Positions 12,600 through 29,514 of a DNA stretch of 63,092 nt are shown in pieces. The notes below the pieces were generated by a model, which worked only from the letters and a program-made list of their open reading frames with translations, searched no databases and was not told where the DNA came from. A program made the position numbers and the translations under genes. The stretch is from Actinomyces sp. ZJ308. Its GTDB lineage: Bacteria; Actinomycetota; Actinomycetes; Actinomycetales; Actinomycetaceae. Where the stretch lies: the NCBI RefSeq assembly GCF_011752065.1, contig NZ_JAAIJY010000019.1, positions 1 to 63,092 on the forward strand. Direction: 5' to 3'. Within the stretch, counting starts at the first letter, position 1. Each line of letters starts with the position of its first letter.

Positions 12600-12683
12600 G
12601 GGCCTTCCTGGTGGTGACGTCGGTGGGGTGTGACGGGGACAACGATAGGCGGGGACAGGCGGGGACAGGCGGGAGGGTGCGGC

Positions 12684-16332: not shown

Positions 16333-17055
16333 ATGAGCAGCACCTCGTCCGCGACCTCGCCAGACGACACGAGCACAGACACCACCGAGAATCCCACCGA
16401 GAATCTCACTGAGAACCCCACTGAGGACACCTCTGAGAACCCCACGGCACCCCTCCCCGCCTCGGCAGACACCCAGCCCCTGACTCAGCCACCGACCCAG
16501 CCGCTGACTCAACCGCTGACTCAGCCACCGACCATGCCGCTTCCCGCCTCCGACGGCGTGGCCACCGACGTCCTGAGCACCGGGGAGGCACCGGACGACA
16601 GCGTCCCGGACGCTCCCTCGGCTGACGCCGAGACCACCGAGACCGAGGCGATGGCGGTCACTGACACCATCACCTCTCCGGCCTCGAGCTCGGCCTCGAA
16701 CCAGGACGGTTTCTCCACCGCCTTCGATGCCGCCCCCTTCGGTCAGGACGGCAGGAACGGCAGGAGCCGCAGCGCGTCAGCGGATTCGGCACCCGCGTCG
16801 TCGGCACCCGACTCGGTGTGGAGCGCCGGGACGGTGGCCGGCAAGGACCAGCAGCCGCAGGCTCCCAGCGACATCAGGGGATCCACGCTCCTGTGGGGGG
16901 CGTTCCTGCTCCTGGTGGGCGGGCTGCTCATCGCGGCGGGCCTGGGGCTGCGCTTCGACTTCACGACGACGGCCATCGTCTGCCTGGCGGGACTGGGAGC
17001 CCTGCTCGTCGTCGCCGCCCTCATTCCCAAACGGCGCCACAGCACCAAGGCCTGA
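16333..17055 (+). CDS. Repeat-rich membrane protein of unknown function
   Basis: 240 residues, ATG preceded by GCAAGGAGACC. The first 165 residues are low complexity: a Thr/Glu/Asn block (about 15-38, TENPTENLTENPTED) and a Pro/Gln/Leu/Thr block (about 50-70, QPLTQPPTQPLTQP), both encoded by degenerate short tandem DNA repeats. The C-terminus has two membrane helices (about 179-198 and 204-226) and a basic end (PKRRHSTKA). It lies 90 bp after the PspC gene and may be co-transcribed. No family recognised; the layout suggests a cytosolic disordered arm tethered to the membrane. Confidence 0.75.
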   Translation: MSSTSSATSPDDTSTDTTENPTENLTENPTEDTSENPTAPLPASADTQPLTQPPTQPLTQPLTQPPTMPLPASDGVATDVLSTGEAPDDSVPDAPSADAETTETEAMAVTDTITSPASSSASNQDGFSTAFDAAPFGQDGRNGRSRSASADSAPASSAPDSVWSAGTVAGKDQQPQAPSDIRGSTLLWGAFLLLVGGLLIAAGLGLRFDFTTTAIVCLAGLGALLVVAALIPKRRHSTKA

Positions 17056-17067
17056 TCCGACCGGACT

Positions 17068-17151
17068 TACGTCCGCGCGGACGCACCTGAGAATTCGCAA
17101 CCGTCCCGGCACGGTGGGCACGCGATCCCTCGGTGCGTCCGCGCGGACGTA
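17068..17151. promoter_or_regulatory. 20-bp inverted repeat, each arm itself palindromic, upstream of SdpI-like gene
   Basis: TACGTCCGCGCGGACGCACC at 17068-17087 recurs as its perfect reverse complement at 17132-17151, with 44 nt between. Each arm contains the 14-bp palindrome CGTCCGCGCGGACG. The pair sits between the repeat-rich protein and the SdpI-like gene, 75 bp before the latter. Two identical dyads suggest paired operator sites with possible looping; a terminator is less likely because no T-tract follows. Confidence 0.55.
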
Positions 17152-17225
17152 CCATGACAAAGAAGCGACAGACGGCTCACCGTCTCCACGATTCTTTGCC
17201 AGGCCGATGAGAGCGAGGGGTGCTG

Positions 17226-17600
17226 ATGGCTGAGACCGCGTTCTCCGTGCTCATGATCCTGCTCCTGGGCGCGGCGGGGATATTGCTCCTGGTCATGGGG
17301 TGCAGGATGTCTCAGCGCAGACTCCCGCCGAACTCGTGGGCCGGAGTGCGGTACGCGGTGGCCCTCCAGTCCGAGGAGAACTGGTACGAGATGCAGGCCC
17401 AGTGCGCGACGGCCACGGCAGGCCTGGGCGTCGTCCTCATCGACTCCGCCGTCCTGTTCGCCATTCAGGCGTTTCTCCGCGACACGATCTCAGTCGTGAT
17501 CCCCATGGTCGTCATGCTGATTCAGGTGGCTGCCGGCATCGCGCTGCTTCACGTGCGAGCCCGCAAGTACCGAACGCACCTTCTGAGAAATGCGAAGTGA
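17226..17600 (+). CDS. SdpI family membrane protein
   Basis: 124 residues from ATG 17226, chosen because GAGGGG at 17215-17220 gives proper spacing. Three membrane helices: about 5-24, 63-83 and 87-107. Between the first and second is the conserved cytosolic stretch RRLPPNSWAGVRYAVALQSEENWYEMQ, which matches the SdpI C-terminal-type domain (PPN...GIRT...SEEAW...N). In Bacillus, SdpI gives immunity to the SdpC toxin; stand-alone members elsewhere have no assigned role. No toxin gene is visible nearby. Confidence 0.8.
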   Translation: MAETAFSVLMILLLGAAGILLLVMGCRMSQRRLPPNSWAGVRYAVALQSEENWYEMQAQCATATAGLGVVLIDSAVLFAIQAFLRDTISVVIPMVVMLIQVAAGIALLHVRARKYRTHLLRNAK

Positions 17601-17976
17601 ACCCATCTAGACAACCGACGTCAGATAAATTCAAGAAGGACGCACCTCCGGGAGATCGTCAGCAACACCCCCTCATAAAAATCAAGAACTTAAGGGCGTA
17701 AGACACTTTATCCCGATCCTCGAACAATAATTCTTCCGTAAGTCACAGCACGTCCTGACCACGGATCCTCAACCATGGTGCGAATCCAGTCCGAATAATA
17801 GTCGCATATTTTTTATGCGGAAACGCTCTCCGGAGTATCTCGTGTCGGCCGCAACATCATTCTTAATGGTCCATATTTTGAGATCAACCTGACCGTCAAC
17901 CCAGGAGCGAGCTACCGTTCAGTTACTCCCATTTCGATTCATTTCGATTCCCTTCTACCGCACACAAGGAACCGCT
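17601..17976. other. AT-rich intergenic region
   Basis: No gene is seen. Base composition falls sharply relative to the surroundings (runs such as ATATTTTTTATG near 17808 and several ATT/TAA clusters). The last 60 bp hold a direct repeat of TTTCGATTC (about 17933 and 17943) and a good ribosome site (AAGGAACC) for the following lipoprotein. This is probably a long promoter region, possibly acquired together with that gene. Confidence 0.5.
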
Positions 17977-18702
17977 ATGCGCAAACTCGTTCGTCGCCAT
18001 CGCCTCACCACCATGCTGGGCGGAGCAGTGATCGCTGGATCATGCGCATTGGCAGGATGCTCTTCCGGAGGCAGTACGGCAGGGGCGCCCGCAAGCAGCT
18101 CCGCGACACAGTCGATCAGCGCTTCCCCAACTCCCACGGCCAAGAACGTGACAGTGTCACCCGAATCCGTCTCAGACACGGAACTGGGTTACATAGTCAC
18201 CGAAGTCACCCCCGAGATGACAGACGAGAAGCTTCCGGTCCTCAAGGCCTCCGTCGCCTACGACCAAGCACTCTGGCGCCTCAATATCACCGGAAAGTCC
18301 GCCGACAATCCCGACTCACTTGCGATCGACAAGGCCCGGGATGACCTCATCGAGAATCCAGAATTTCCGAGGAGAGTACACCGCACAGCACCCATCAAGG
18401 TGTCGATTGACATCGTGGACTTTGAAGCCAATAGACGCGACCTCGCCCAGGTGACCACCTGTCTCGATCTGAACGAGAGCAAGGCGGTCAACACCAAGGG
18501 TGAGGACGTCACCATGTCGACGGATATAGGAAAGTACAGAGTCGAAACGACGCTGGTTCTAAATGACGACAAAAAATGGGTGGTGAAGCAGCAACGTACC
18601 GCCGATGTGGGGACGTGCGGTAATGACACCTCCTCGGCCAGCCCCTCGACCGCGACCCAGCAGTCGACTGCTGGAGCCACCTCCAGTCACACAGGCGGCT
18701 GA
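17977..18702 (+). CDS. Predicted lipoprotein of unknown function
   Basis: 241 residues. Basic N-terminus, hydrophobic stretch and lipobox LAGC with the lipid-bearing cysteine at C28, followed by a Ser/Ala/Thr-rich linker to about residue 55. The mature domain (VTVSPESVSDTELGYIVTEV ... VVKQQRTADVGTCGN) contains two cysteines (in VTTCLDLNES and VGTCGND) that may form a disulfide. The C-terminus is Ser/Thr-rich. No family recognised. Codon use is less GC-biased than in the neighbours, and the gene stands alone behind an AT-rich region, which hints at transfer or a lineage-specific origin. Confidence 0.8.
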   Translation: MRKLVRRHRLTTMLGGAVIAGSCALAGCSSGGSTAGAPASSSATQSISASPTPTAKNVTVSPESVSDTELGYIVTEVTPEMTDEKLPVLKASVAYDQALWRLNITGKSADNPDSLAIDKARDDLIENPEFPRRVHRTAPIKVSIDIVDFEANRRDLAQVTTCLDLNESKAVNTKGEDVTMSTDIGKYRVETTLVLNDDKKWVVKQQRTADVGTCGNDTSSASPSTATQQSTAGATSSHTGG

Positions 18703-18773
18703 TGCCGCAGCATTGTCATCAGGCGAGGTGACCTGGGTCCGAGCTTGTTGCCGAAGCATGGCCCTCCCGCTCA

Positions 18774-19367
18774 TCAGCCCTGGTAGACGATCTTGGCCTT
18801 GACGTCGTCGACGGCCTCCTCGCCCAGGTAGTGGCGCACGATCTCCAGGCCGAAGTCGATGGCGGTGCCCATGCCGCGGGAGGTGATGACGGGGCCGTCG
18901 GTCACCACGGCGGCCTGACTGACCTGTGCTCCGTGGTCGGCCAGGACGCCGATGAAGCCGGGGTTCGACGTCGCCTGACGCCCCTCGAGCAGGCCCAGTT
19001 CGGCCAGGATCGAGGGGGCGGCGCAGATGGCGGCCACCGGTCGTCCGGCGCGGACCCGCTCGGTGACCTCGGCCATGAGCGGCTCGACGGCCTTGAGGTT
19101 GGGGGTGCCGGGGATGCCGCCGGGCAGGACGAGCATGTCGTAGTCGGCCAGGTCCGCCTCGGCCAGGGTGAGGTCGCAGGTGACCACGATGTTGTGGGAG
19201 GAGGTGACGGTCCGCTCGGGGGTCACGGAGATCATCGTCGTCGGGATGCCGGCGCGGAAGAGGACGTCCACGGTCGCCAGCGCCTCGACCTCCTCCAGTC
19301 CCGGCGCGATGAGGACGGCGACGGACTTGTCGGTCCTCTGGTCGGTGGGCGCGTGGAAAGCGGGCAT
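18774..19367 (-). CDS. DJ-1/PfpI family protein
   Basis: 197 residues. The class I glutamine amidotransferase-like fold is shown by LIAPGLEEVEA, the LVLPGGIPGTPNL segment and the nucleophile elbow VAAICAAPSIL with C115. This is the DJ-1/YajL/ThiJ subgroup, linked to protein or metabolite deglycase and redox-stress roles; the exact activity cannot be told from sequence. The start ATG lies behind GGAGGAGAC. Monocistronic, convergent with the lipoprotein gene and about 100 bp after the amylase. Confidence 0.9.
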   Translation of the reverse strand: MPAFHAPTDQRTDKSVAVLIAPGLEEVEALATVDVLFRAGIPTTMISVTPERTVTSSHNIVVTCDLTLAEADLADYDMLVLPGGIPGTPNLKAVEPLMAEVTERVRAGRPVAAICAAPSILAELGLLEGRQATSNPGFIGVLADHGAQVSQAAVVTDGPVITSRGMGTAIDFGLEIVRHYLGEEAVDDVKAKIVYQG

Positions 19368-19465
19368 GTCTCCTCCAGGAAGGTCGTCTCAGCGGTGTGC
19401 GGCTGCCGCCATCACCCTACGCGCCCACGGTGCCGGCCGGGAAGGCGACGGCTCGGGGCGCAGAA

Positions 19466-20998
19466 TCAGCGCTGGCGCAGGAGGTACTGCTCGGCGCGCT
19501 CCAGGATCGGACGGGCGGTCTCGGGCGCGTAGACGCTCAGGCCCCCGTCGGAGACGGGCAGCTCGACTCCGCCGTCGCCGCCGATGGTGACCGGCTCGTG
19601 CCCGCCCAGGACGCAGACCCACTGCTCGCCGGCGTGCCGGGCTCCGACGTGGAGTCGCTTGGCGCCTGCGCGGCGGTCGGACAGGACGACGGCGAGTCCG
19701 GAACCGGGGTGGGCGTCGTCGCCCTCGCGTGCGAAGCCGACGACGTCGGGCTCGTCGAGGGCGTCGTGCTGGGGACCGTGGGCCAGGGCGCGCCGCATGG
19801 TCATGAGCAGCGGCAGTTCGGTGACGGCCGGCAGGTCGCCGGTCTCGGGCGTGCCGAACAGGTCACCCCAGAAGACGCAGGGGGTTCCGGCCTCGCGCAG
19901 GAGGATGAGGGCGTAGGCCGACGGCTTGAACCACGACTCGATGGTGGAGGCCAGCGACTGGCCCGGCTGGGTGTCGTGGTTCTCCACGAAGGTGACGGCG
20001 CGCGCGGGGTCGGTGGCCACGAGGGTGCCCTCGAAGAGGCGGGACAGGTCGACGTCGCCGTTGGAGGTGGAGGCGGCGTGCAGGTGGAAGTGGAGGGGGA
20101 CGTCGAACAGGCTCGTGAAGGGGACGGCCTCCAGGTAGCCCTCCAGCTCGGCGACGTCGCGGGACCAGTACTCGCCCACGGCCGGCAGGGCGCGCCCGGT
20201 GGCGCGGCGCAGCTCGGGCAGCCAGCGGGCGAAGAAGTCGGCGCCGACGTGCTTGAGGGCGTCCAGGCGCAGGCCGTCGACGCCGGTGGTCTCCACGTAC
20301 CAGCGCCCCCAGCGGTCCATCTCGGCGCTGACGGCGGGGTCGGTGACGTGGACGTCGGAGCCCATGAGGTAGTCGTAGTTGCCGAGCTCGTCGGTGACGT
20401 TCTCGTTCCACTGCTTGCCCTCGAAGAGCCACACGCCCTTGAGCCGGCGGGCCTCGTCCCAGTCGGTGCCGTGGAAGCAGGTCCAGTCCCAGGTGAAGTC
20501 CGAGTAGGCGCCGGCGCGCCCCGGGAAGGTGTAGCGGGTCCAGGCCGTGATCTCCTCGGCCTCGCCGATGGGGCGAAGCCGGTCGTGAGGGTCGACCGGG
20601 GTGGCGCGCACGACCTCGGTGTCGTCGCCGCCCATGCGGTGGTTGAGGACGATGTCGGCCACGACGCTGACGCCCGCGGCGTGCAGGGCCTCGATGGCGG
20701 CCAGGTAGTCCTCCTTGGTTCCGTACTTGGTGGGGATGGTGCCCTTCTGGTCGAACTCGCCCAGGTCGTAGGTGTCGTAGACGCCGTAGCCGACGTCCTC
20801 CACGCCGGCCTGTCCCTTGTAGGCGGGCGGCAGCCAGGCCGAGCTGACCCCGCAGTCGGCCAGGAGGGCGGCGTTGTCGGCCAGGAGACGCCAGTGGCCG
20901 GCGTCGGCGGGCAGGTCCCAGGCGAAGGCCTGGAGCAGGAGGGGGTTGACGACGTCGTCCGTGTGGGCGGGGCGGGGCTGGGCGTGGTTCTCGGTCAC
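19466..20998 (-). CDS. GH13 alpha-amylase (cytoplasmic type)
   Basis: 510 residues from the proposed GTG at 20998; an in-frame ATG at 21064 would begin inside the 117-bp repeat and is less likely. No signal peptide. Catalytic residues of GH13 are visible: nucleophile D246 (GLRLDALKH), acid/base E276 (GEYWS) and D342 (VENHDTQPGQSL), with region I VVADIVLNH. The start LLLQAFAWDLP and overall layout match the intracellular amylase subfamily that degrades maltodextrin or stored glycogen. It stands alone, with no transporter nearby. Confidence 0.9.
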   Translation of the reverse strand: MTENHAQPRPAHTDDVVNPLLLQAFAWDLPADAGHWRLLADNAALLADCGVSSAWLPPAYKGQAGVEDVGYGVYDTYDLGEFDQKGTIPTKYGTKEDYLAAIEALHAAGVSVVADIVLNHRMGGDDTEVVRATPVDPHDRLRPIGEAEEITAWTRYTFPGRAGAYSDFTWDWTCFHGTDWDEARRLKGVWLFEGKQWNENVTDELGNYDYLMGSDVHVTDPAVSAEMDRWGRWYVETTGVDGLRLDALKHVGADFFARWLPELRRATGRALPAVGEYWSRDVAELEGYLEAVPFTSLFDVPLHFHLHAASTSNGDVDLSRLFEGTLVATDPARAVTFVENHDTQPGQSLASTIESWFKPSAYALILLREAGTPCVFWGDLFGTPETGDLPAVTELPLLMTMRRALAHGPQHDALDEPDVVGFAREGDDAHPGSGLAVVLSDRRAGAKRLHVGARHAGEQWVCVLGGHEPVTIGGDGGVELPVSDGGLSVYAPETARPILERAEQYLLRQR

Positions 20999-21053
20999 GG
21001 CACCGATGCTGCCAGTCCGCTCCCGACGGCGAAAGCCGAACGGGCAACCGAAG

Positions 21054-21170
21054 GGTGCGCTCACCTCTGGCCGGGGACATTCGGCGCCGTCGGGGACAGA
21101 ATTTCTGTCCCCGCACGTGCAAGATGTCCCCGGCCAGGAAAATGTGCACCCCTACGCGCAGGATGTCCCC
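21054..21170. repeat. 117-bp repeat, copy A (left flank of defence module)
   Basis: Aligns without gaps to 24556-24672 in the same orientation (about 15 mismatches by eye). It contains a perfect 14-bp inverted repeat CTGGCCGGGGACAT (21067-21080) / ATGTCCCCGGCCAG (21124-21137). Inside that loop is a tight hairpin, GGGGACAGAA (21091-21100) / TTCTGTCCCC. The motif TGTCCCC/GGGGACA occurs five times. It lies between the amylase start and the antitoxin promoter. Confidence 0.85.
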
Positions 21171-21197
21171 ACCAGCCGAGCCCGCACATCCCTCTGA

Positions 21198-21210
21198 TAC
21201 CACTTTGGTA
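21198..21210. promoter_or_regulatory. Candidate antitoxin operator
   Basis: TACCACTTTGGTA is a perfect 5-bp dyad around CTT, followed directly by GGTACC-type symmetry. It lies 21 bp before the antitoxin start, where ribbon-helix-helix antitoxins normally autorepress their operon. Inferred from position. Confidence 0.4.
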
Positions 21211-21230
21211 CCACCTGTTAGTCTTGGTGC

Positions 21231-21434
21231 GTGGCGATGACACTGCGCTTGAGCAAGGAGGATGAGCGCCTTCTGACACTCCTGGCACAGGAGGACGGGA
21301 TCAGCCGTCAGGAGGCGACGATCCGGGCGATCCACGAGGCGGCCGCGCGCCGCGGGCATGAGCAGCGGGTCAAGAAGGCTTCCGCCCGCGTCCGCAGCCG
21401 GTACGCCGATGTCCTGGAACGCCTCGGCCGCTGA
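21231..21434 (+). CDS. Ribbon-helix-helix antitoxin of a Doc-type module
   Basis: 67 residues from GTG 21231 (ATG 21237 is an equally possible start). The N-terminal beta strand MTLRLSKEDERLLTLLA followed by two helices (SRQEATIRAIHEAAARR) fits a CopG/MetJ-like ribbon-helix-helix fold. The basic C-terminus (RVKKASARVRSRYADVLERLGR) would wrap the toxin. It ends 21 nt before the Doc gene, on the same strand. The partner identity supports the antitoxin call; no homologue is named. Confidence 0.82.
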   Translation: MAMTLRLSKEDERLLTLLAQEDGISRQEATIRAIHEAAARRGHEQRVKKASARVRSRYADVLERLGR

Positions 21435-21455
21435 TCGGTCGCCGACCAACCGCAG

Positions 21456-21833
21456 ATGATCGAGTACCTGACACTCGAGGACGCCCTCTCACTCATCGAG
21501 GATCTCGCCGTGGGACCGGTCCGGGATCTCGGCCTGCTTGACTCGGCGCTGCACCGGCCTGCGGCCACTCTCTGGGGACGCGACGCCTACGCCACGATCG
21601 ACGAGAAGGCTGCGGCCCTGCTCGACTCCCTGGTCCTCAATCATCCGCTGGTAGACGGCAACAAGCGGTTGGGATGGTTGGCCACACTGGTCTTTCTCGA
21701 TGTCAACGGCCACTGGATCGAGGCTCCCGACGACGACGCCTACCAGCTGGTGATCGCTGTCGCGGCTGGAGAGCTGTCGCTGGAGGAGATCACCAAGGCT
21801 CTCGCACGATGGCATGGTCGCGGCCCGGAGTAG
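21456..21833 (+). CDS. doc: Doc family toxin (Fic-fold kinase)
   Basis: 125 residues. Doc toxins phosphorylate elongation factor EF-Tu and stop translation until neutralised. The Fic/Doc core motif is HPLVDGNKR at 63-71, close to the Doc consensus HxFx(D/N)(A/G)NKR with Leu in place of Phe. Upstream, the ALHRPAATLWGRDAYATIDEKAAALLDSLVLNH segment is typical of the family. It forms an operon with the antitoxin 21 nt upstream and is convergent with mcrC, whose stop is only 12 bp away. Confidence 0.92.
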   Translation: MIEYLTLEDALSLIEDLAVGPVRDLGLLDSALHRPAATLWGRDAYATIDEKAAALLDSLVLNHPLVDGNKRLGWLATLVFLDVNGHWIEAPDDDAYQLVIAVAAGELSLEEITKALARWHGRGPE

Positions 21834-21845
21834 ATCCGGAGTGGA

Positions 21846-22964
21846 TCAGGCAGGAGGGAGCAGGGCTGCGACGTCGTCGAGCTGGGCGGCGATCTCGGTG
21901 AAGTCCCGGTCCAGGTCGAGGGTGCGCACGTGGAAGCGGTGCCCGGTCTCCGTCCAGGTCTCGCGGATCGGCGGGTCGACGGTGGTCTGGGCATAGAGCA
22001 GCATGCCCTCGACCTCGCGCCCGCTCTGGCGGGGGTCGCTGGCCTCGTGCATGACGTAGCTGTAGATCTGGTTGCGGTTGGCCGGGGACAGGATCTGCCT
22101 GTCGAAACGGGACCCGAGGATCCGTCCGTAGCACTTGGTGTCGATGATGAGGGTGCGCGCCGCCCCGGTCAGGACGATGTCCGTGTGCAGTCCCGGCAGG
22201 AAGACCGGGGCGTCCTCGATGCCGCCGCTCACCCACGGGGCCCCGGCACGCAGGTGGGGATGATGGCGCCGGAAGTAGGCCAGGACGAAGCGCTCGTAGA
22301 GGGCGCTCAGCTCCTGAGGGTCGAGGAGGTCCGCGAGGGCGACTGCGCCGTCGGCACTGCTGAGCAGCCGCTGGTCCAGGACGAGCCGGCACACCCCCAT
22401 GAGCAGCCGGTAGGAGCGGTTGCCGCGGTGGAAGCGCAGCGTCTCCCAGCGAAGGCATCCGAGCTCGCTCGCGCTCATCAGCTCGACGCCGCCCATGACG
22501 AGCAGCGTGGACTTCAGCCTGGTCCTGCGAGCCGAGGTGATGTCGCCGTGCAGGATCAGGCGCAGGGCGGCGGTCTTGAGGAGCCGGTTCATGAGGGTGT
22601 TCTCGGTACGTTCGTCGTAGCCGCAGCGCATGAGCCCCTTGCGGCGGGCCTGCAGCCGCAAGGTGGCGGCGGGGTCGATGCGTCCCCGCACGAGCGCCAG
22701 GTCCTCGGTGAAGGACTCGTAGTCCCGCTCGAAGCCGCGTCGACGCTGGTTGTCGAGTCCCTCGGCGAGGACGGCGGCGAGCAGGTCGTGGGCATGATCG
22801 AAGTCCTCAGCAGCCAGGCGCCGGTGCTCACCGGTCTCCAACGCGGTGAAGGCGTAGGCGAGCATGTAGTAGACGTTCTTGAGCAGCACGGTGCTGGGGC
22901 CCTCGGGGTGGGGCCGGCCGGGCTCCCCGTTGGCTACCCGGCCGGGGGATGCGGTGGCCGTCAC
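21846..22964 (-). CDS. mcrC: McrC-like nuclease subunit of a type IV restriction system
   Basis: 372 residues. McrC supplies the DNA-cutting subunit of McrBC, which restricts DNA with modified bases. N-terminal LLKNVYYMLAYAF is typical of McrBC subunit C proteins. The C-terminal PD-(D/E)xK nuclease is seen as LHTDIVL (D262), LIIDTKCY (D275, K277) and NRNQIYSYV (297-305). GTG/ATG overlap: its start lies inside the end of mcrB (4-nt overlap), so the two are co-translated. It converges on the Doc gene. Confidence 0.92.
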   Translation of the reverse strand: MTATASPGRVANGEPGRPHPEGPSTVLLKNVYYMLAYAFTALETGEHRRLAAEDFDHAHDLLAAVLAEGLDNQRRRGFERDYESFTEDLALVRGRIDPAATLRLQARRKGLMRCGYDERTENTLMNRLLKTAALRLILHGDITSARRTRLKSTLLVMGGVELMSASELGCLRWETLRFHRGNRSYRLLMGVCRLVLDQRLLSSADGAVALADLLDPQELSALYERFVLAYFRRHHPHLRAGAPWVSGGIEDAPVFLPGLHTDIVLTGAARTLIIDTKCYGRILGSRFDRQILSPANRNQIYSYVMHEASDPRQSGREVEGMLLYAQTTVDPPIRETWTETGHRFHVRTLDLDRDFTEIAAQLDDVAALLPPA

Positions 22965-24430
22965 AGCAGGACGCTCTCCAGCTGGTGAATGCTCTCCTCC
23001 ATGGCGGCCCGGTTATCGAACCAGTACTCGCGCACCAGCGGTTCGAGCTCGTAGCGCACCACCGAGGCGACGTCCGCGTCTGCAGCGCCCTCTGCGCTCC
23101 CGGAGCCCCTGGGCGGCAGGCACAGGTAGGAGTGGCCGATCTGGAACCCGGGCCCGAGGGTCTCGTCCTCGATGATCCGCTGGTTGAGGCGACGTACAAC
23201 GTCGACCAGAGCCTCCAGCCTCGGGCTGCCCACGGCCGCGACGTGCCGGAGGAAGCCGGGGTGGTCGAGGGCCGGTTTCATCTCGAAGAAGGCGAAGCGG
23301 CGCCGCAGCGCGTAGTCGATGAGAGCCAGGCCCCGGTCGGCCGTATTCATCATGCCGATGAGGTGGAGCCGCTCCGGGACGGCCAGCAGCTCCCCGGAGA
23401 CCGGCAGGCGCAGTGCATCCCCGCGGTGCTCGGCCTCGATGAGCATGAGCAGCTCGCCGAAGGCCTTGGAGATGTTGGCGCGGTTGATCTCGTCGATGAT
23501 GAACACGTAGTCCCGACCCGGCTCCGCGGCGGCACGCCGGCAGAACCTGGCGAACACGCCCTCGACGGCCGCGAACCCGCCCTCGCTCGTGGGCCGCAGC
23601 CCGACGACGACGTCCTCGTAGGCGGTCGACTGGTGGAACTGCACCATCTCCACCCGCGAGTCGTCCACCTGCCCCATGAGCGCATAGGCCAGGCGCTTGG
23701 CCGCGAAGGTCTTGCCCGCCCCGGGAGCGCCCTGAAGGATGAGGTTCTTCTTGCGTCGCAGCAGCCCGAGCATCTGCTCCAGGTCCTCGGGATCGAGAAA
23801 GACCTCCTCCAGGAAATTCTCTCGCGTGTAGAGGTCGACGACGTCACCGCTGACCCGATCGGCGTCCTCAGCGCCCGGGGCCTGGATGGAGTCCGGGGAC
23901 GGCGCCAGTTCCTCGCGCTCCCTGAACAGCGACTCGAGCTGGGCCGGGTTGTAGCTCGTGTTCTCCGTGACACGTTGCAGGGTCACGGCGCCGACCCGAC
24001 GGTCGAGCGTCCAGGAGCCGATATGCGTCCACTCGACGTCGCGCACACAGCGGTAGGAGGACCGGACGTCGTCGTAGCGGAACCCTGAGCGGACGATGCC
24101 GCGTCCGATGATCTCGGTCGGAGTGCGCCGGGCGTAGACGACGTCGCCGGGGCGGATGGTGTGGGCGAAGTCCCGGATCATTCTCGCCGCGCCCCTCGGG
24201 CGCCCTCCCCAGTCCCCATAGCTGGACTCCAGTGCCTCGATGATCGCCTCCTCGTTCGGGTAGCGCGTGGGGTCACCGATCCGGTCCCAGTTGAGGGCCA
24301 TGATCCCGGCCGTCTGAAACTCCTCCCACTTCCCGGCGCCCTCGCCGGGGACGTAGAGCCAGTACCGGCGCTCCTGCTCCTCAGCCGTCTCAGGCGTGTC
24401 CTCGGCCGACGTCGTCACCGACTCGCTCAT
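22961..24430 (-). CDS. mcrB: McrB-like GTPase with N-terminal EVE/PUA-like domain
   Basis: 489 residues. The N-terminal part (about 22-155: YWLYVPGEGAGKWEEF..., RPGDVVYARRTPTEIIGRG) resembles EVE/PUA-like modified-base readers. A linker with LYTRENFLEEVFLDPEDLEQM leads to an AAA+ domain with Walker A GAPGAGKT (234-241), Walker B VFIIDEIN (309-316) and MNTADR (361-366), the motif that marks McrB-type GTP-dependent motors. It loads McrC onto modified DNA. The start ATG at 24430 follows GAGGAACC. The EVE assignment is from pattern, not a domain search. Confidence 0.9.
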   Translation of the reverse strand: MSESVTTSAEDTPETAEEQERRYWLYVPGEGAGKWEEFQTAGIMALNWDRIGDPTRYPNEEAIIEALESSYGDWGGRPRGAARMIRDFAHTIRPGDVVYARRTPTEIIGRGIVRSGFRYDDVRSSYRCVRDVEWTHIGSWTLDRRVGAVTLQRVTENTSYNPAQLESLFREREELAPSPDSIQAPGAEDADRVSGDVVDLYTRENFLEEVFLDPEDLEQMLGLLRRKKNLILQGAPGAGKTFAAKRLAYALMGQVDDSRVEMVQFHQSTAYEDVVVGLRPTSEGGFAAVEGVFARFCRRAAAEPGRDYVFIIDEINRANISKAFGELLMLIEAEHRGDALRLPVSGELLAVPERLHLIGMMNTADRGLALIDYALRRRFAFFEMKPALDHPGFLRHVAAVGSPRLEALVDVVRRLNQRIIEDETLGPGFQIGHSYLCLPPRGSGSAEGAADADVASVVRYELEPLVREYWFDNRAAMEESIHQLESVLL

Positions 24431-24516
24431 GGTTCCTCCTCATCACCCGTGCTCGCGGCGCTGCGAGCACGTCCAGGGAGAATAGTAGTGCCACCGTCGG
24501 CCATCAGTACCAGCCG

Positions 24517-24672
24517 GGTGCGGCCACCTCCGGCCGGGGGCATTCCACGCGGCCAGGTGCGCTCACCTCCGGGCGGGGACATTCGACGCCGTCGGGGACA
24601 GAAATCCTGCACCCGTACGCGTGGCATGTCCCCGGCCAGAAGAATGTGCACCCCTACGCGCAGGATGTCCCC
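24517..24672. repeat. 117-bp repeat, copy B with adjacent partial copy (right flank of defence module)
   Basis: The full copy is 24556-24672, aligned without gaps to 21054-21170. A 34-bp partial copy of its left end precedes it at 24517-24550 (GGTGCGGCCACCTCCGG...). The hairpin arms seen in copy A are partly degraded here. It lies between the mcrB start and the 3' end of the methyltransferase gene. Confidence 0.82.
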
Positions 24673-24686
24673 GCCGGAAGACGTCC

Positions 24687-25514
24687 TCAGGCCGGTGCGC
24701 GCAGTACCACGATGCGCTCGGAGAGCGGCCCCACCAGCGGCAACCGCACCAGGGGCGCGAGCACGGGGTTGTAGCGCGCAATGGTGTCGGTGAAGGGGAC
24801 GTCGTGGAGCAGCGTGAAGCCGGGCGCGACCGTGCGGCGGAACTCGGCGGCGCTGGAGCAGCCGTAGGTGTATCGCGCCCCCGCATCCTCCACCGAGCGC
24901 TCCCTGCCGTACTTCTGGAACAGGCGGGCCATGACCTCGATGAGAACCGTCGCGCCGGGCAGCCGCGCAGCGATGATGTCCAACAGGGAGCGCACCTCGT
25001 CCTGCTCGAGGTACATGCTCAGTCCCTCAATGATGACGAGCATGTCACCGCTCCCCTCACCGCTAGCCCTGTCCTCTTCCAACCGGTCGGGCCAGGCGGG
25101 GTCGAGGGCGGAGGCGGCGATCGTGCGGTGGCGCTCGCCGTCCTCGAGCAGCCGGCGTCGCAGCTCGATGACGTCGGGCAGATCGAGGTCGTACCAGGTG
25201 ACGCGCCCGTCGTCGAGGCGCTGGAAGCGGGTATCGAGCCCGCAGGCGATGTTGACCACCGTGCAGCCGGGGTGGGTGGCGAGGTAGCCGGCGACGAGCG
25301 GGTCGAGGGTGAGGGTGCGCAGCACGACGCCGTCGGCCATGAGCCGGTCCTGACTCGCCATGGTGAAGTCGTAGTCGAGCCGGGAGACGAGCTCGACGGC
25401 GGCGGGGTCGGTGAAGCGGGGCCGCTCGGAGAGCGTGTGCTGCGCCCGGGCGTAGAGGGTCAGCAGCATCGTCTTGCTGACCCCGGTCAGGTCTGCTGTC
25501 TCGTATGCGCTCAT
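24687..25514 (-). CDS. SAM-dependent O-methyltransferase of the LCMT/PpmS-like family
   Basis: 275 residues from ATG 25514; the frame is open further upstream but overlaps the MerR gene. The SAM-binding motif is VVNIACGLDTRFQRL (87-101), followed by VTWYDLDLPDVIELRRRLL and LVIIEGLSMYLEQDEVRSLL, the pattern of leucine carboxyl methyltransferase-like proteins and polyketide O-methyltransferases. Substrate unknown. No biosynthetic cluster surrounds it. It ends 15 bp from repeat copy B. Confidence 0.88.
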   Translation of the reverse strand: MSAYETADLTGVSKTMLLTLYARAQHTLSERPRFTDPAAVELVSRLDYDFTMASQDRLMADGVVLRTLTLDPLVAGYLATHPGCTVVNIACGLDTRFQRLDDGRVTWYDLDLPDVIELRRRLLEDGERHRTIAASALDPAWPDRLEEDRASGEGSGDMLVIIEGLSMYLEQDEVRSLLDIIAARLPGATVLIEVMARLFQKYGRERSVEDAGARYTYGCSSAAEFRRTVAPGFTLLHDVPFTDTIARYNPVLAPLVRLPLVGPLSERIVVLRAPA

Positions 25515-25606
25515 GCGGTCAATTCTGCGACTCCGATGCCGCAGGCCGCTACCGCCGTCACGACATCTCCCGGCGTCCCTCGATGCCCGACATCGACCTG
25601 CGCAGC

Positions 25607-26089
25607 TCAGTAGCGGTGGATGCCGCAGGCCTCCTTGATACGGCGGATCCTGGGAGGCAGCTCCTCGGGCGCCATGGTGCGCGGAACGTCGCAGGAGCCC
25701 GCCTGGGTCGCCACCTCGTAGAACCAGCACTTGTAGTCGATGAAGTCGAGGGTGGTCTCCAGGTCCCTGATCTGGCGGAGAACCTCCTCGCGCCGAGCCT
25801 CCACGATCCGGCGCCTGGCCGCGATGGTCGAGTCGCCCTCGACGTAGAGGCGCACGTACTCCTTGATCTCCCTGATCGGCATGCCGGACTTCTGGAGCCT
25901 CTCGATGTAGCGGATCCACTCCAGGTCGTCCTCGGTGAAGCGGCGGGTACCTCCCTCGGTGCGAACCACCTGGGGCAGCAGGCCCTCGCGGTCGTAGAAG
26001 CGCAGGGCCGACGTCGTCAGTCCCGTGGCCCGCGAGGCCTCGCCAATGCCGTAGGTGCGTTCCTGGTCGGCGGTCACCGGCATCGTCAT
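25607..26089 (-). CDS. MerR family regulator
   Basis: 160 residues from ATG 26089, preceded by GGAGAAG at good spacing. N-terminal MerR winged helix (TYGIGEASRATGLTTSALRFYDREGLL, residues 12-38) and a dimerisation coiled coil (about 85-125). C-terminal cysteines C121, C133 and C155 could be sensor residues, though no known metal-binding pattern is evident. It is divergent from an aldo-keto reductase, the common MerR-AKR arrangement for electrophile or redox stress, with a 22-bp dyad between the two genes. Confidence 0.9.
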   Translation of the reverse strand: MTMPVTADQERTYGIGEASRATGLTTSALRFYDREGLLPQVVRTEGGTRRFTEDDLEWIRYIERLQKSGMPIREIKEYVRLYVEGDSTIAARRRIVEARREEVLRQIRDLETTLDFIDYKCWFYEVATQAGSCDVPRTMAPEELPPRIRRIKEACGIHRY

Positions 26090-26152
26090 GGTGTCTTCTC
26101 CTTCCTGACCTCGGTGAGCAGGCACGTGCAGCACCTCACTCACCCGGCGCTT

Positions 26153-26174
26153 GATCTGAAGTGCACTTCATATC
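26153..26174. promoter_or_regulatory. Candidate MerR operator
   Basis: A dyad centred on TGAAGTGCACTTCA (26157-26170, perfect 14 bp) extends to 22 bp with one mismatched pair. It sits in the divergent region between the MerR gene and the aldo-keto reductase, where MerR proteins bind within a long promoter spacer. A TTGATC at 26151-26156 could be the -35 element of the reductase promoter. Confidence 0.6.
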
Positions 26175-26273
26175 CGAGAGTAGTGACAACGGCCCGCGGG
26201 GAGGAACCCACCGCCGGTATCCACCCCACCGCCCGCCTCGCCGTCTGCTCACCACCTACCTCAGGAGATCATC

Positions 26274-27251
26274 GTGTCCGCCTCTTCCACCTCACCCGCC
26301 ACGCCGAACGCTCCCCTGCCCCGCATCGCTCTGGGAACCTGGTCCTGGGGGTCGGGCGCCGCCGGAGGCGACCAGGTCTTCGGCAACCACCTCACGGATG
26401 ACGACCTCAAGCAGGTGTTCGACGCCGCCATGAGCCAGGGCCTGCGCCTGTGGGACACGGCGCTCGTCTACGGCATGGGCGCCTCCGAGCGCGCGCTCGG
26501 CGCCCTGATCGCCGACGTCCCGCGCCAGGACGTCATCATCTCCACCAAGTTCACTCCGCAGATCGCCGGAGACGGGACCGACCCGGTCGCCGACGAGCTG
26601 GCGCAGTCCGAGCAGAACCTCGGCACCAGCGACATCGACCTCTACTGGATCCACAACCCCGGTGACGTCGAGCGGTGGACCCCGCTGGTGGCCCAGCTGG
26701 CCGCGGAGGGCAAGGTCGGGCGCGTGGGCGTCTCGAACCACAACCTCGCCCAGATCAAGCGGGTTGAGGAGATCCTGTCCACCAGGGGCGTCCACCTCTC
26801 CGCCATCCAGAACCACTACTCGCTCCTGTACCGCTCGAGCGAGGACGCGGGCCTTCTGGACTACTGCCGCGACAACGGCATCGACTTCTTCGCCTACATG
26901 ACCCTGGAGCAGGGCGCCCTGTCCGGCAAGTACGACGCCGACCACCTCATGCCGGCCGACTCCCAGCGCGGCCGCACCTACAACCCGCTGCTGCCCAGGC
27001 TCGGGGCCCTGCTGGAGACGCTGCGCGCCATCGCGGCGGCCCACGACGTCGCCCCCGCTCAGGTCAGCGTCGCCTGGGCCATCGCCAAGGGCACCATCCC
27101 GATCATCGGGGTCACCACGCCCGCCCAGGTCGACGACGCGGCCAAGGCCGTCAGCCTGACGCTGAGCGCGGACGAGGTCGCCAGGTTGGAGGAGGCCGCG
27201 CAGGCCTCCGGCGTCGACACCCGGGGCTCGTGGGAGAGCCCGATGTCCTGA
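26274..27251 (+). CDS. Aldo-keto reductase (NADPH-dependent)
   Basis: 325 residues from GTG 26274, supported by CAGGAGATCATC. TIM-barrel reductase with catalytic Asp and Tyr in LWDTALVYGMGASE, Lys in VIISTKFTP, and His in LYWIHNPG. The C-terminal cofactor region GTIPIIGVTTPAQVDDAAKA is intact. Likely reduces reactive carbonyls or quinones. Divergent from the MerR gene and followed at 81 bp by a YciI-like gene in the same direction. Confidence 0.92.
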   Translation: MSASSTSPATPNAPLPRIALGTWSWGSGAAGGDQVFGNHLTDDDLKQVFDAAMSQGLRLWDTALVYGMGASERALGALIADVPRQDVIISTKFTPQIAGDGTDPVADELAQSEQNLGTSDIDLYWIHNPGDVERWTPLVAQLAAEGKVGRVGVSNHNLAQIKRVEEILSTRGVHLSAIQNHYSLLYRSSEDAGLLDYCRDNGIDFFAYMTLEQGALSGKYDADHLMPADSQRGRTYNPLLPRLGALLETLRAIAAAHDVAPAQVSVAWAIAKGTIPIIGVTTPAQVDDAAKAVSLTLSADEVARLEEAAQASGVDTRGSWESPMS

Positions 27252-27332
27252 GGGGCTGCACGCCAACCTGCACGCCAACCTGCACGGCCACCTCCCGCAG
27301 CCACCACCACCCACCTACTTGAAGGAACAGAC

Positions 27333-27626
27333 ATGTTCATCATTGACCTGACCATCACCGAGACCGTTGACGAGCAGAGCGCTGCGGAGCACCTGGCCGC
27401 GCACCGAGCCTGGTTCTCCGCGCACGTCGAGTCCGGAGACTTCATCCTCCTGGGACCGCGCCTGGACCGTGAGAAGGCCGGCATCATCGTCGCCCGGGCG
27501 GCGTCGCGCGAGGACCTGGAGAAGATCCTGTCCCAGGACGTCTACTACCCCGACGGCGCCACCTACGAGGTTGCCGAGTTCAAGGCGGCCTCCGGCGTGC
27601 CCGAGGTCGCCGGTCTTCTGGAGTAG
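27333..27626 (+). CDS. YciI-like protein
   Basis: 97 residues, ferredoxin-like fold. The H-containing motif HLAAHRAWFSAHVESGDFILLGP matches the YciI/YCII family, whose His/Asp pair is thought to act in dehalogenation or isomerisation of small aromatic or lactone compounds. ATG 27333 is preceded by GAAGGAAC. Probably in an operon with the aldo-keto reductase. Confidence 0.88.
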   Translation: MFIIDLTITETVDEQSAAEHLAAHRAWFSAHVESGDFILLGPRLDREKAGIIVARAASREDLEKILSQDVYYPDGATYEVAEFKAASGVPEVAGLLE

Positions 27627-27743
27627 GAGCGGTGGCCCCGCCTTCTAACGGCGCGGCACCGGGCTCGGCCGGTTGCCCCCTCAGCCTCCGGGTGGCGACC
27701 GGCCGGCGACGTCTGCACCGCTGTGCGCGACCGGCCGTGCGGC

Positions 27744-28526
27744 TCAGTCCTCCTCCAGGACGCCGTTCCACGCCAGGAAGTCGGCGGTGCGGCGCATGGC
27801 CTCCTCCCAGTTGGCGTCCCCGAAGCCGTGGGCGGCGCCGGGGATGGTGACGAGCTCGGCGTCGGGAAGGGATCGTGCGGCGGCCCGGGAGACCTCGATG
27901 GGCACGGCGCGGTCCTGCTCCCCGTGGACGATGAGGACGGGACGGCGGTAGGTGGCCAGCTCGGCCCCGACCTCCAGGTTCCAGCCGTCGACGGCGTAAG
28001 CGCGCCCCAGGCGGCTGCCCGCCCAGTCGAACTCCTCGGGCACGGCCGCCAGGGTGCGGAAGGCGGCGCGCAGGTTCTCCCCCAGCCGCAGGGCCGGGTA
28101 CCACAGGGCCAGGGCGGCGATCCGCTGCGGGTGCCGGGCGGCCGCGAGCGCAGCGACCGCTCCTCCCAGGCTCAGCCCGAACAGGGCGACCCGGGAGGCG
28201 TCCGCCTCCGGCCAGGCGCAGGCGGCGGTGAGCACGGCCTCCAGGTCCGCCAGCTCGGTGAGGGCCGACATCGCGGTGGTCTCGCCCTGGCTGGCACTGC
28301 CGCCGCCCCCGCGGAAGTCGAAGCAGACGGCCACGGCACCGGCCGCGGCAAAGCGTCGCGCCATGGGGGCGACGCGGGTGTGGGATCCCTCCATGCCGTG
28401 GCCGCAGATGACCAGGGGCGCGGGGGCCGACGACGCCGCGCGCGGGATGTAGGCCAGTCCCCCGATCCTCTGCCCCTGGGCGGTGAAGGTGACCTGCCGT
28501 GAGAGGTAGGGCTGCGTCGTCGTCAC
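27744..28526 (-). CDS. Alpha/beta hydrolase (dienelactone hydrolase-like)
   Basis: 260 residues from GTG 28526, preceded by AAGGAGC; the open frame continues upstream but through another gene's region. Nucleophile elbow LFGLSLGGAVAAL, oxyanion region CGHGMEGS, acid in VLIVHGEQDRAVP and histidine in GAAHGFGD complete the catalytic triad. No signal peptide. Substrate unknown; it converges on the aldo-keto reductase/YciI pair. Confidence 0.88.
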   Translation of the reverse strand: MTTTQPYLSRQVTFTAQGQRIGGLAYIPRAASSAPAPLVICGHGMEGSHTRVAPMARRFAAAGAVAVCFDFRGGGGSASQGETTAMSALTELADLEAVLTAACAWPEADASRVALFGLSLGGAVAALAAARHPQRIAALALWYPALRLGENLRAAFRTLAAVPEEFDWAGSRLGRAYAVDGWNLEVGAELATYRRPVLIVHGEQDRAVPIEVSRAAARSLPDAELVTIPGAAHGFGDANWEEAMRRTADFLAWNGVLEED

Positions 28527-28635
28527 ATGTGCTCCTTGCCGTCCGGGCCAGGCGGAAGGCGCCCGGCCCGGCAGCCATGGTAGAGCCACGGTAGACGCCC
28601 CGCCGGACAGCCCCGCCGCGCTCCGGTCCTGCGCC

Positions 28636-29514
28636 TCAGTCGTCGAGGTGCGCCAGCAGCGTCGGAATGAACTCCTCATGGTGCTGGAAGACGCCGCCGT
28701 GCCCGGACCCTGGGTAGATGACCAGCGCACTGCCGGGGATGCGTTGGTGCAGGTCCTGGGACAGCGGGGTCGGGACCATACGGTCGTGGTCACCGTTGGC
28801 GATGAGGGTGGGGGCCGTGATCCGGGACAGGTCCTGCGGCTGCTGGCGTCCCCAGGCCTTGATGGCGGCGATCTGGGTGCGGAAGGCCTTGAGGGTGATC
28901 GGTGTGTCCCGGTCCATGACTCGTTCGCGGATCCGGGCGAGGTAGTCGCGGGCCGCCGCCTTGCCGGTGGGCGTGCGCGGGAAGAAGAGGAACTCCTTGG
29001 CGTCGGTGCGAGCCAGCGCCCCGCGCAGCATGTCGAGGTAGACGTAGGCCGCCCCGGTGGGCCGGTTGATCCCTTCGCCTCCGGCAGGGCCTGTTCCAGC
29101 CAGGACGAGCCGTCGCACCAGGTTCGGGGCGTCGAGGGCGACCTGCTGGGCGACGAATCCTCCCAGCGAGAAGCCCATGAGGTCGATCCGACTGAGGCCG
29201 AGCGCTGCGATGAAGGCCCGTACGGCGCCGGCCATGCCCTTGATGGTCGGTGGCACGCTCCCGGCGGAGGAGCCGATGCCGGGCAGGTCGAGCGCGATGA
29301 CGCGGCGACCGGCCGCCAGGGCGTCGACGACGCGGGGATCCCACTCGTCGAGGGTGGCACCGAGGTGGGTGAGCAGGACGATGGGCATGGCGCCGTCGGC
29401 CCCAAGATCCCGGTAGGCGAGGGACTCGTTCCTGACCCGCAGGTGCCGGGTGGGAGCGGAGGTCCATCGAGTCGCGCGCCCACCGTTCAGTGTGGTGCCG
29501 CCTGTCTCAGGCAT
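28636..29514 (-). CDS. Alpha/beta hydrolase
   Basis: 292 residues from ATG 29514. Motifs: THLGATLDEWDPR (oxyanion region), LMGFSLGGFVAQQVAL (nucleophile Ser), NGDHDRMVP (Asp) and GSGHGGVFQ (His). It resembles proline iminopeptidase/haloperoxidase-type hydrolases. Its start overlaps the stop of the upstream quinone oxidoreductase by 8 nt, so the two are one translation-coupled unit, presumably controlled by the divergent HxlR regulator. Confidence 0.9.
   Translation of the reverse strand: MPETGGTTLNGGRATRWTSAPTRHLRVRNESLAYRDLGADGAMPIVLLTHLGATLDEWDPRVVDALAAGRRVIALDLPGIGSSAGSVPPTIKGMAGAVRAFIAALGLSRIDLMGFSLGGFVAQQVALDAPNLVRRLVLAGTGPAGGEGINRPTGAAYVYLDMLRGALARTDAKEFLFFPRTPTGKAAARDYLARIRERVMDRDTPITLKAFRTQIAAIKAWGRQQPQDLSRITAPTLIANGDHDRMVPTPLSQDLHQRIPGSALVIYPGSGHGGVFQHHEEFIPTLLAHLDD

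Follow-up and report, generated by a model that had tools for sequence, protein, structure and literature searches.

A predicted McrBC restriction module and a ribbon-helix-helix (RHH)-Doc toxin-antitoxin module lie between direct copies of a dispersed near-palindromic repeat, hereafter R, in the 63,092-nucleotide stretch that we analysed (the window; Actinomyces sp. ZJ308, contig NZ_JAAIJY010000019.1). Comparison with related genomes revealed that modules are permuted at this locus and at two others, and that most breaks in gene order fall in gaps that hold R; at the two other loci, every broken adjacency has R. With a probability of about 0.68, we read the interval as a site at which modules are gained, lost and re-ordered through homologous recombination between direct R copies, which look like swap points in the Actinomyces chromosome. 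This reading would link the turnover of defence genes in a genus from dental plaque to one particular repeat that can be located in any strain, and R gives exact predictions of the blocks open to loss or swap and of the place where crossover is expected. If true, it adds a high-GC Gram-positive example to a phenomenon known mainly from Neisseria.

Modules between direct repeats vary separately

The first-pass annotation of the window had proposed that two direct 117-bp repeats bracket RHH-Doc and McrCB, and this was borne out: positions 21054-21170 and 24556-24672 align gaplessly with 15/117 mismatches (16 over 120 nt, 87% identity). No second repeat family of comparable length and identity was found in window 17000-29000. 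The left R (21054-21173, plus strand) retains three units, at 21073-21097 (>), 21107-21131 (<) and 21146-21170 (<), its outer left unit being missing or decayed. The right R (24536-24675, plus strand) has four, starting at 24536 (>), 24575 (>), 24609 (<) and 24648 (<). A further partial copy described at the right is present but is really the outer unit (24536-24560) of this repeat, which is why the right R counts four units and the left three. Likewise, mcrB and mcrC had been called a convergent pair; the two genes are in fact co-directional, and it is the pair that converges on RHH-Doc, with facing stops 13 bp apart.

Across 49 genomes of the genus, the flanking amylase gene (E <= 1e-80) was found in 28, McrB (1e-20) in 10 and the flanking methyltransferase (1e-40) in 16. 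Among the 12 genomes of the A. oris/naeslundii/johnsonii clade, RHH-Doc (D) was present in 11 and McrCB (M) in nine, M never occurring without D, and an antitoxin open reading frame (ORF) lay beside Doc in 11/11 Doc-bearing genomes, truncated in G060. The order is R-D-M-R in the window's own genome (G000) and in G069, as well as in G025, where both R copies are decayed, and G060, where the left border is deleted; G011 reads R-D-M-R-P-R with a partial left R, P being a small-ORF cassette. The arrangement is R-P-R-M-R-D-R in G007 and G010, R-P-R-M-D in G006 and G003 (P partial in G003), R-P-D-R in G026 and R-D-R in G065. In G001, the ~170 bp between the matched flank parts consist of one R fused on each side to relative-like flank sequence.

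Variation between the same flanks had been predicted and was observed: a single R joins the flanks in G001, McrBC is missing while Doc is kept in G026 and G065, and McrBC lies on the other side of Doc in four genomes. The idea of a swappable cassette stood insofar as the interval varies, but the modules vary separately and the whole block is therefore not the exchanged unit. Doc and McrBC as a single mobile unit was accordingly rejected, given two genomes with D alone, four with M-D and one with neither among the 12. The suggestion that a toxin-antitoxin pair would penalise loss of the block found no support either: two genomes without McrBC keep Doc and one lacks both, the outgroups have Doc without McrBC, and in A. 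johnsonii Doc stands beside a truncated antitoxin gene. These patterns suggest that a defence module is not necessarily stabilised by having a toxin-antitoxin pair next to it.

Neither M nor an R match occurs at the locus in the outgroups G061 (A. massiliensis) and G027, which do have D; D has therefore probably resided there longer. Trees of Doc and of the methyltransferase separate the D-M genomes from a clade made up of those with M-D, those with D only and the empty one, G001, which lacks Doc and is placed by the methyltransferase tree only. The flank trees of G065 conflict, its amylase grouping with A. naeslundii (G025) and its methyltransferase with A. oris, which indicates that exchange took place within the interval.

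Two local details accompany these comparisons. In G060 (A. johnsonii CCUG 34287; L067:4665-5136), Doc matched over all 125 residues and the left R is gone, with residues 40-67 alone matching in the antitoxin gene. Cassette P (L075:4680-5080 in G007) holds a basic ORF of 47-50 codons and, by eye, a terminator-like inverted repeat; it matched in 13/14 genomes searched, one to five times each. In A. oris, P is bordered by R copies at the amylase locus, and in the window's genome it is bordered by them on another contig (C23:67515).

R is a near-palindrome with at most four units, nearly confined to one clade

R is a dispersed, nearly palindromic element with at most four units of 25 bp (consensus GGGGACATtcnaCGCggnCGGGgaC, from 250 units) and the spacing >39>34<39< or shortened forms of it. 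We characterised its architecture with an exact-type pattern in the window, 19 G000 stretches and 1.16 Mb of G010, G026 and G069. Of 119 clusters, 14 were full (>><<), 38 had two or three units including the centre (>><, ><< or ><), two were of a longer form, 16 had only >> or << and 49 were single units, so that many copies are decayed or incomplete. The inner spacing was 34 in 52/54 pairs, and the outer spacing 39-40 in 43/44 on the left and 29/33 on the right. Three copies folded as RNA gave z-scores of -7.4 to -7.9, among them the left (21066-21173, -7.65) and right (24532-24675, -7.37) copies of the window. The inner unit cores differed by a mean of 4.6 mismatches of 11, compared with 4.1 for shuffled partners, and the variable cores are therefore not kept complementary.

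Exact unit matches numbered 58 + 56 (114) in the window's genome, with none for a reversed-pattern control; over the 49 genomes searched, there were 5 to 84 in 11 clade relatives and 1 to 3 in five further genomes, against 0 to 2 per genome for the control. In a wider set, blastn detected R in 11/59 genomes, counting the window's own, and all 11 are Actinomyces. Outside the A. oris/naeslundii/johnsonii clade, R is nearly absent. At an E limit of 1e-5, a phage collection gave no match and a plasmid collection a single record, the 415-kb 'plasmid unnamed1' of A. oris WVU627 (NZ_CP116225.1). This record has R at 15 places plus housekeeping-type genes, and may be a chromosome piece.

Of the 61 R clusters in three large regions, 51 lie where neighbouring called ORFs are at least 100 bp apart. 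By gap type, R in G069 leaned towards convergent gaps, occupying 6/42 of these, 5/85 co-directional and 1/47 divergent gaps; G010 showed no preference, and copies in G026 were too few. Neighbouring copies (<8 kb apart) were more alike than distant ones in 3/3 permuted genomes (p 0.0008, <0.0002 and 0.003) and mostly same-oriented (37 direct vs 10 inverted in four genomes), as would be expected if nearby copies arise by duplication or undergo conversion.

Short dispersed intergenic repeats at the borders of rearranged blocks are described for Neisseria dRS3/NIME in passages of PMC9778887. R is likewise dispersed, with inverted units and tens to hundreds of copies per genome, but it has another sequence, 25-bp units numbering up to four with 39/34/39 spacing, and occurs almost only in one Actinomyces clade. 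REP/BIME elements are extragenic palindromic units, of 20-40 bp according to the abstract of PMC3733652, where Pseudomonas REPs are presented as targets of insertion sequence (IS) insertion. R shares with them the structure of dispersed intergenic palindromic units in arrays; it differs in reaching ~140 bp and in that no Y1 transposase was detected in the 49 genomes.

Identity with a known RNA family was discarded, since window 19000-27000 matched nothing in Rfam at an E limit of 1. With regard to a miniature inverted-repeat transposable element, five alignments, one of them with R in both genomes, showed no clean target-site duplication. Among the papers listed by searches of open-licence literature on Actinomyces repeats or this locus, R was not described in any title or abstract opening, and a term search in PMC9964710 gave no passage on DNA repeats. 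IS-like ends were seen in or beside R in three genomes: at a contig break inside R in G060 (A. johnsonii; L067, L068), at a ~650-bp insert with 9-bp inverted ends at R in G003 (L072:4320-4971), and adjoining the site where McrBC is missing in G026 (L073:5515).

Blocks at two further loci swap places at R

At locus 2 (G000 C2:50000-89382; anchor gene in 9/12 genomes), the order g17-R-[g18-20]-R-[g21-25] of G000, G069 and others is replaced in G026 and G010 by one with the two blocks swapped and their orientation kept. Six of 42 adjacencies with R were broken, compared with 0/116 without R; two of the six breaks are in G065 and arise from one small gene (g26). Locus 3 (G000 C23:38000-77999) was compared in 11/12 genomes, G001 being excluded for a contig end. 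Here, R-[malic enzyme + SIS]-R-[Fic]-R has its blocks swapped in G026 and G065; the Fic gene, which matches the PADLOC SoFic model, stands alone in G007, G006, G003, G010 and G060, the malic-enzyme block stands alone in G025, and neither block is present in G069 and G011. Broken adjacencies numbered 6/39 with R and 0/158 without. Combined, 12/81 R adjacencies were broken vs 0/274 others, in related genomes that are not independent.

Could an abundant repeat simply flank a variable defence locus by chance, with insertion sequences having rearranged the genes? The abundance of R and the IS-like ends in G060, G003 and G026 speak for this explanation; it nonetheless leaves the orientation-keeping swaps at two further loci, with 12/12 broken adjacencies at R, as coincidence, and the M-D swap showed no obvious IS, although none was sought by profile. 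We regard chance as highly improbable.

R-bracketing over larger regions

A scripted map of ~400 kb comparing G069 with G010/G026 showed a single move of three or more genes, that of the R-bracketed trio at locus 2, and the remaining mismatches involved one or two genes; G010 and G026 were nearly colinear over 360-400 kb. When wholly absent or moved R-bracketed intervals were compared with random gene runs, enrichment was found from G010 (6/14, p 0.003; 5/14, p 0.034). Of the 34 variable blocks between G010 and G026, four were R-bracketed on both sides vs 0.33 expected, under a control that ignores R clustering. Different defence genes between R copies were seen in another R-bracketed variable block, L217:2615-9397 of G010, which holds HsdM and HsdR of a type I restriction system and is absent from the compared G026 and G069 regions. 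Other R-bracketed proteins of G010 identified by Pfam include an AraC-type regulator, an ABC transporter, a histidine kinase, prephenate dehydratase and DUF817, and two had no Pfam match. Beyond locus 1, R-bracketed blocks contain a Fic protein and type I restriction, and also malic enzyme and transporters.

Several observations weigh against recombination at R as the cause of these rearrangements. No crossover inside R was resolved. At locus 1, the order of M and D tracks species in the trees and so may be one old event; the M-D junction in G006 and G003 and the D-M junction in G000 have no R, and at the P-D junction of G026 an IS-like end takes its place. Loci 2 and 3 were picked for R density in the window's genome, and each has three distinct broken adjacencies common to related genomes, such that independent events are few. 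R-bracketing is common: R-R intervals of 0.6-10 kb cover 69/400 kb in G010, 53/400 kb in G069 and 11/360 kb in G026. An overly abundant repeat had been named at the outset as an argument against a cassette, and this applies in part, as R brackets many ordinary genes. The interval test showed no enrichment from G069 (1/10, p 0.90; 3/10, p 0.27), and from G026 only three intervals were available (1/3, p 0.41; 2/3, p 0.05). Finally, 30/34 variable blocks between G010 and G026 are not enclosed by R at both ends, and blocks with R at one end or more were not enriched (9 vs 7.1 expected, p 0.20).

In minimal mobile elements, the space between two conserved genes is occupied by one of several alternative cassettes, typically with restriction genes. 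In Neisseria, they involve horizontal exchange of gene cassettes, as stated in parts of PMC2649163. Gene content at locus 1 likewise varies while the conserved flanks stay constant; the difference is that the Actinomyces modules also carry repeats of their own at the borders and are re-ordered. On this model, transformation and recombination in the conserved flanks would drive exchange, with R a passenger in tolerant intergenic spaces, as the conflicting G065 flank trees, the presence of R between conserved gene pairs as well and the majority of variable blocks without R brackets would allow. Taken alone, it leaves unexplained both why adjacent blocks swap without inverting and break at gaps holding R and the local likeness of neighbouring R copies, and we consider it unlikely.

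Homologous recombination between R copies as the favoured mechanism

In the mechanism that we favour, R would supply the homology: recombination between direct copies would delete a module together with one R, a module excised as a circle could re-enter at a neighbouring R, and modules might also be imported on transforming DNA. Such recombination would change order without inversion; direct repeats predict deletions and orientation-keeping moves, and moves at all three loci preserve orientation. We infer homologous in preference to site-specific recombination, and likewise circular intermediates and natural import.

A survey of recombinases covered integron integrases, Y1 transposases and PF00589, leaving out serine recombinases and DDE enzymes. 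For the integron integrase, 0/49 genomes exceeded the cut-off, as did 0/14 controls, so that this search had no positive control; the Y1 (RAYT) transposase was found in 0/49 genomes, with the control detected in 5/14. Five of the 12 clade genomes had only two PF00589 matches, probably XerC/D, and there was no clade-wide extra tyrosine recombinase. As the survey revealed no R-specific recombinase, ordinary homologous recombination is favoured. A composite transposon or IS-bracketed island was rejected, as R, at 120-140 bp, is too short to encode a transposase.

The same survey bears on the proposal that R is the site of some as yet unrecognised recombinase and that the modules are integron-like cassettes spread over the chromosome. 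Such a system would account for the strict unit spacing, the strong hairpin, the direct orientation and the different module orders, but it must contend with the lack of any integron integrase over the cut-off in the 49 genomes, with five R-bearing genomes that have two tyrosine recombinases only, and with most examined R-bracketed intervals keeping some or all of their genes; it appears very improbable. A broader conjecture, which we hold to be quite doubtful, would make R the genome-wide cassette border of a chromosome-wide exchange system in A. oris/naeslundii. Any gene block between direct R copies, defence and toxin modules among them, could then be excised, moved to other R copies or traded between strains, possibly with a dedicated protein binding the four-unit palindrome.

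McrBC and Doc modules

McrC (21846-22964, minus strand) matches PF10117 (E 4.6e-21) and the E. coli McrC structure (E 8e-31), with a candidate PD-(D/E)xK-type active site at D262-(12)-D275-T-K277. McrB (22961-24430, minus strand) is an AAA_5 protein matching the E. coli McrB structure (E 4.4e-70), with the motifs GAPGAGKT (Walker A) and MNTADR, and matches PRK11331 at E 1e-70, yet under that model's cut-off. Both frames are open and overlap by 4 nt; NCBIfam equivalog cut-offs were not reached. The module thus has the composition expected of McrBC, namely a predicted AAA+ McrB with conserved motifs beside a McrC with a PD-(D/E)xK-type nuclease.

The N-terminal specificity domain of McrB (23861-24430, minus strand) had no Pfam family match. 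Its best AlphaFold2 model reached a predicted local distance difference test score of 80.8 (the other four, 51.8-72.1), and Foldseek returned EVE and YTH matches at E 7e-5 to 1e-3 with a template modelling score of ~0.4 on the query. EVE-McrB type IV restriction systems pair a McrB AAA+ protein bearing an EVE-superfamily domain with McrC, according to portions of PMC7641849 and PMC11090510. The McrB of the window would resemble these in its EVE-like predicted N-terminal fold and accompanying McrC. McrBC most likely restricts modified foreign DNA, the EVE-like domain reading the mark.

This reader domain comes in two types: of the nine clade genomes with McrB, six have type A, G025 (L044) type B, and G069 (L043/L047) and G010 (L045/L048) both in tandem, two N-terminal domains of different type, in which respect they would depart from the EVE-McrB systems of PMC7641849 and PMC11090510. 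The difference in types suggests that specificity changes independently of R-bounded moves. Frameshifts in the last two genomes, considered because of split tblastn matches, were dismissed, each having one open ~660-aa frame with two N-terminal domains.

Doc (21456-21833, plus strand), a Fic-fold toxin, exceeds the cut-offs of both PF02661 and TIGR01550, has an intact Fic motif (HPLVDGNKR) and finds its best PDB Doc match at E 1.2e-9. The preceding 67-aa putative antitoxin ORF (21231-21434, plus strand) adjoins Doc and has only weak RHH-type Pfam matches (DUF6290, 0.0078; HicB, 0.017; PSK_trans_fac, 0.083). On sequence grounds, the family assignments of Doc, McrC and McrB are solid and that of the antitoxin is weak. 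A small DNA-binding-like ORF followed by Doc is the layout of Doc toxin-antitoxin modules; P1 Doc is paired with Phd, whereas the antitoxin here is RHH-like. RHH-Doc is probably a toxin-antitoxin pair that has long resided at this site and not the guardian of McrBC.

Flanking genes and a minor repeat

The interval is flanked by a GH13 amylase gene (19466-21064, minus strand) and an LCM-family methyltransferase gene (24687-25514, minus strand). The listed GTG start of the amylase falls within R, and the true start likely lies further in. Elsewhere in the window, positions 12635-12670 contain three tandem GGGGACA words at spacings of 16 and 10, an architecture unlike that of R.

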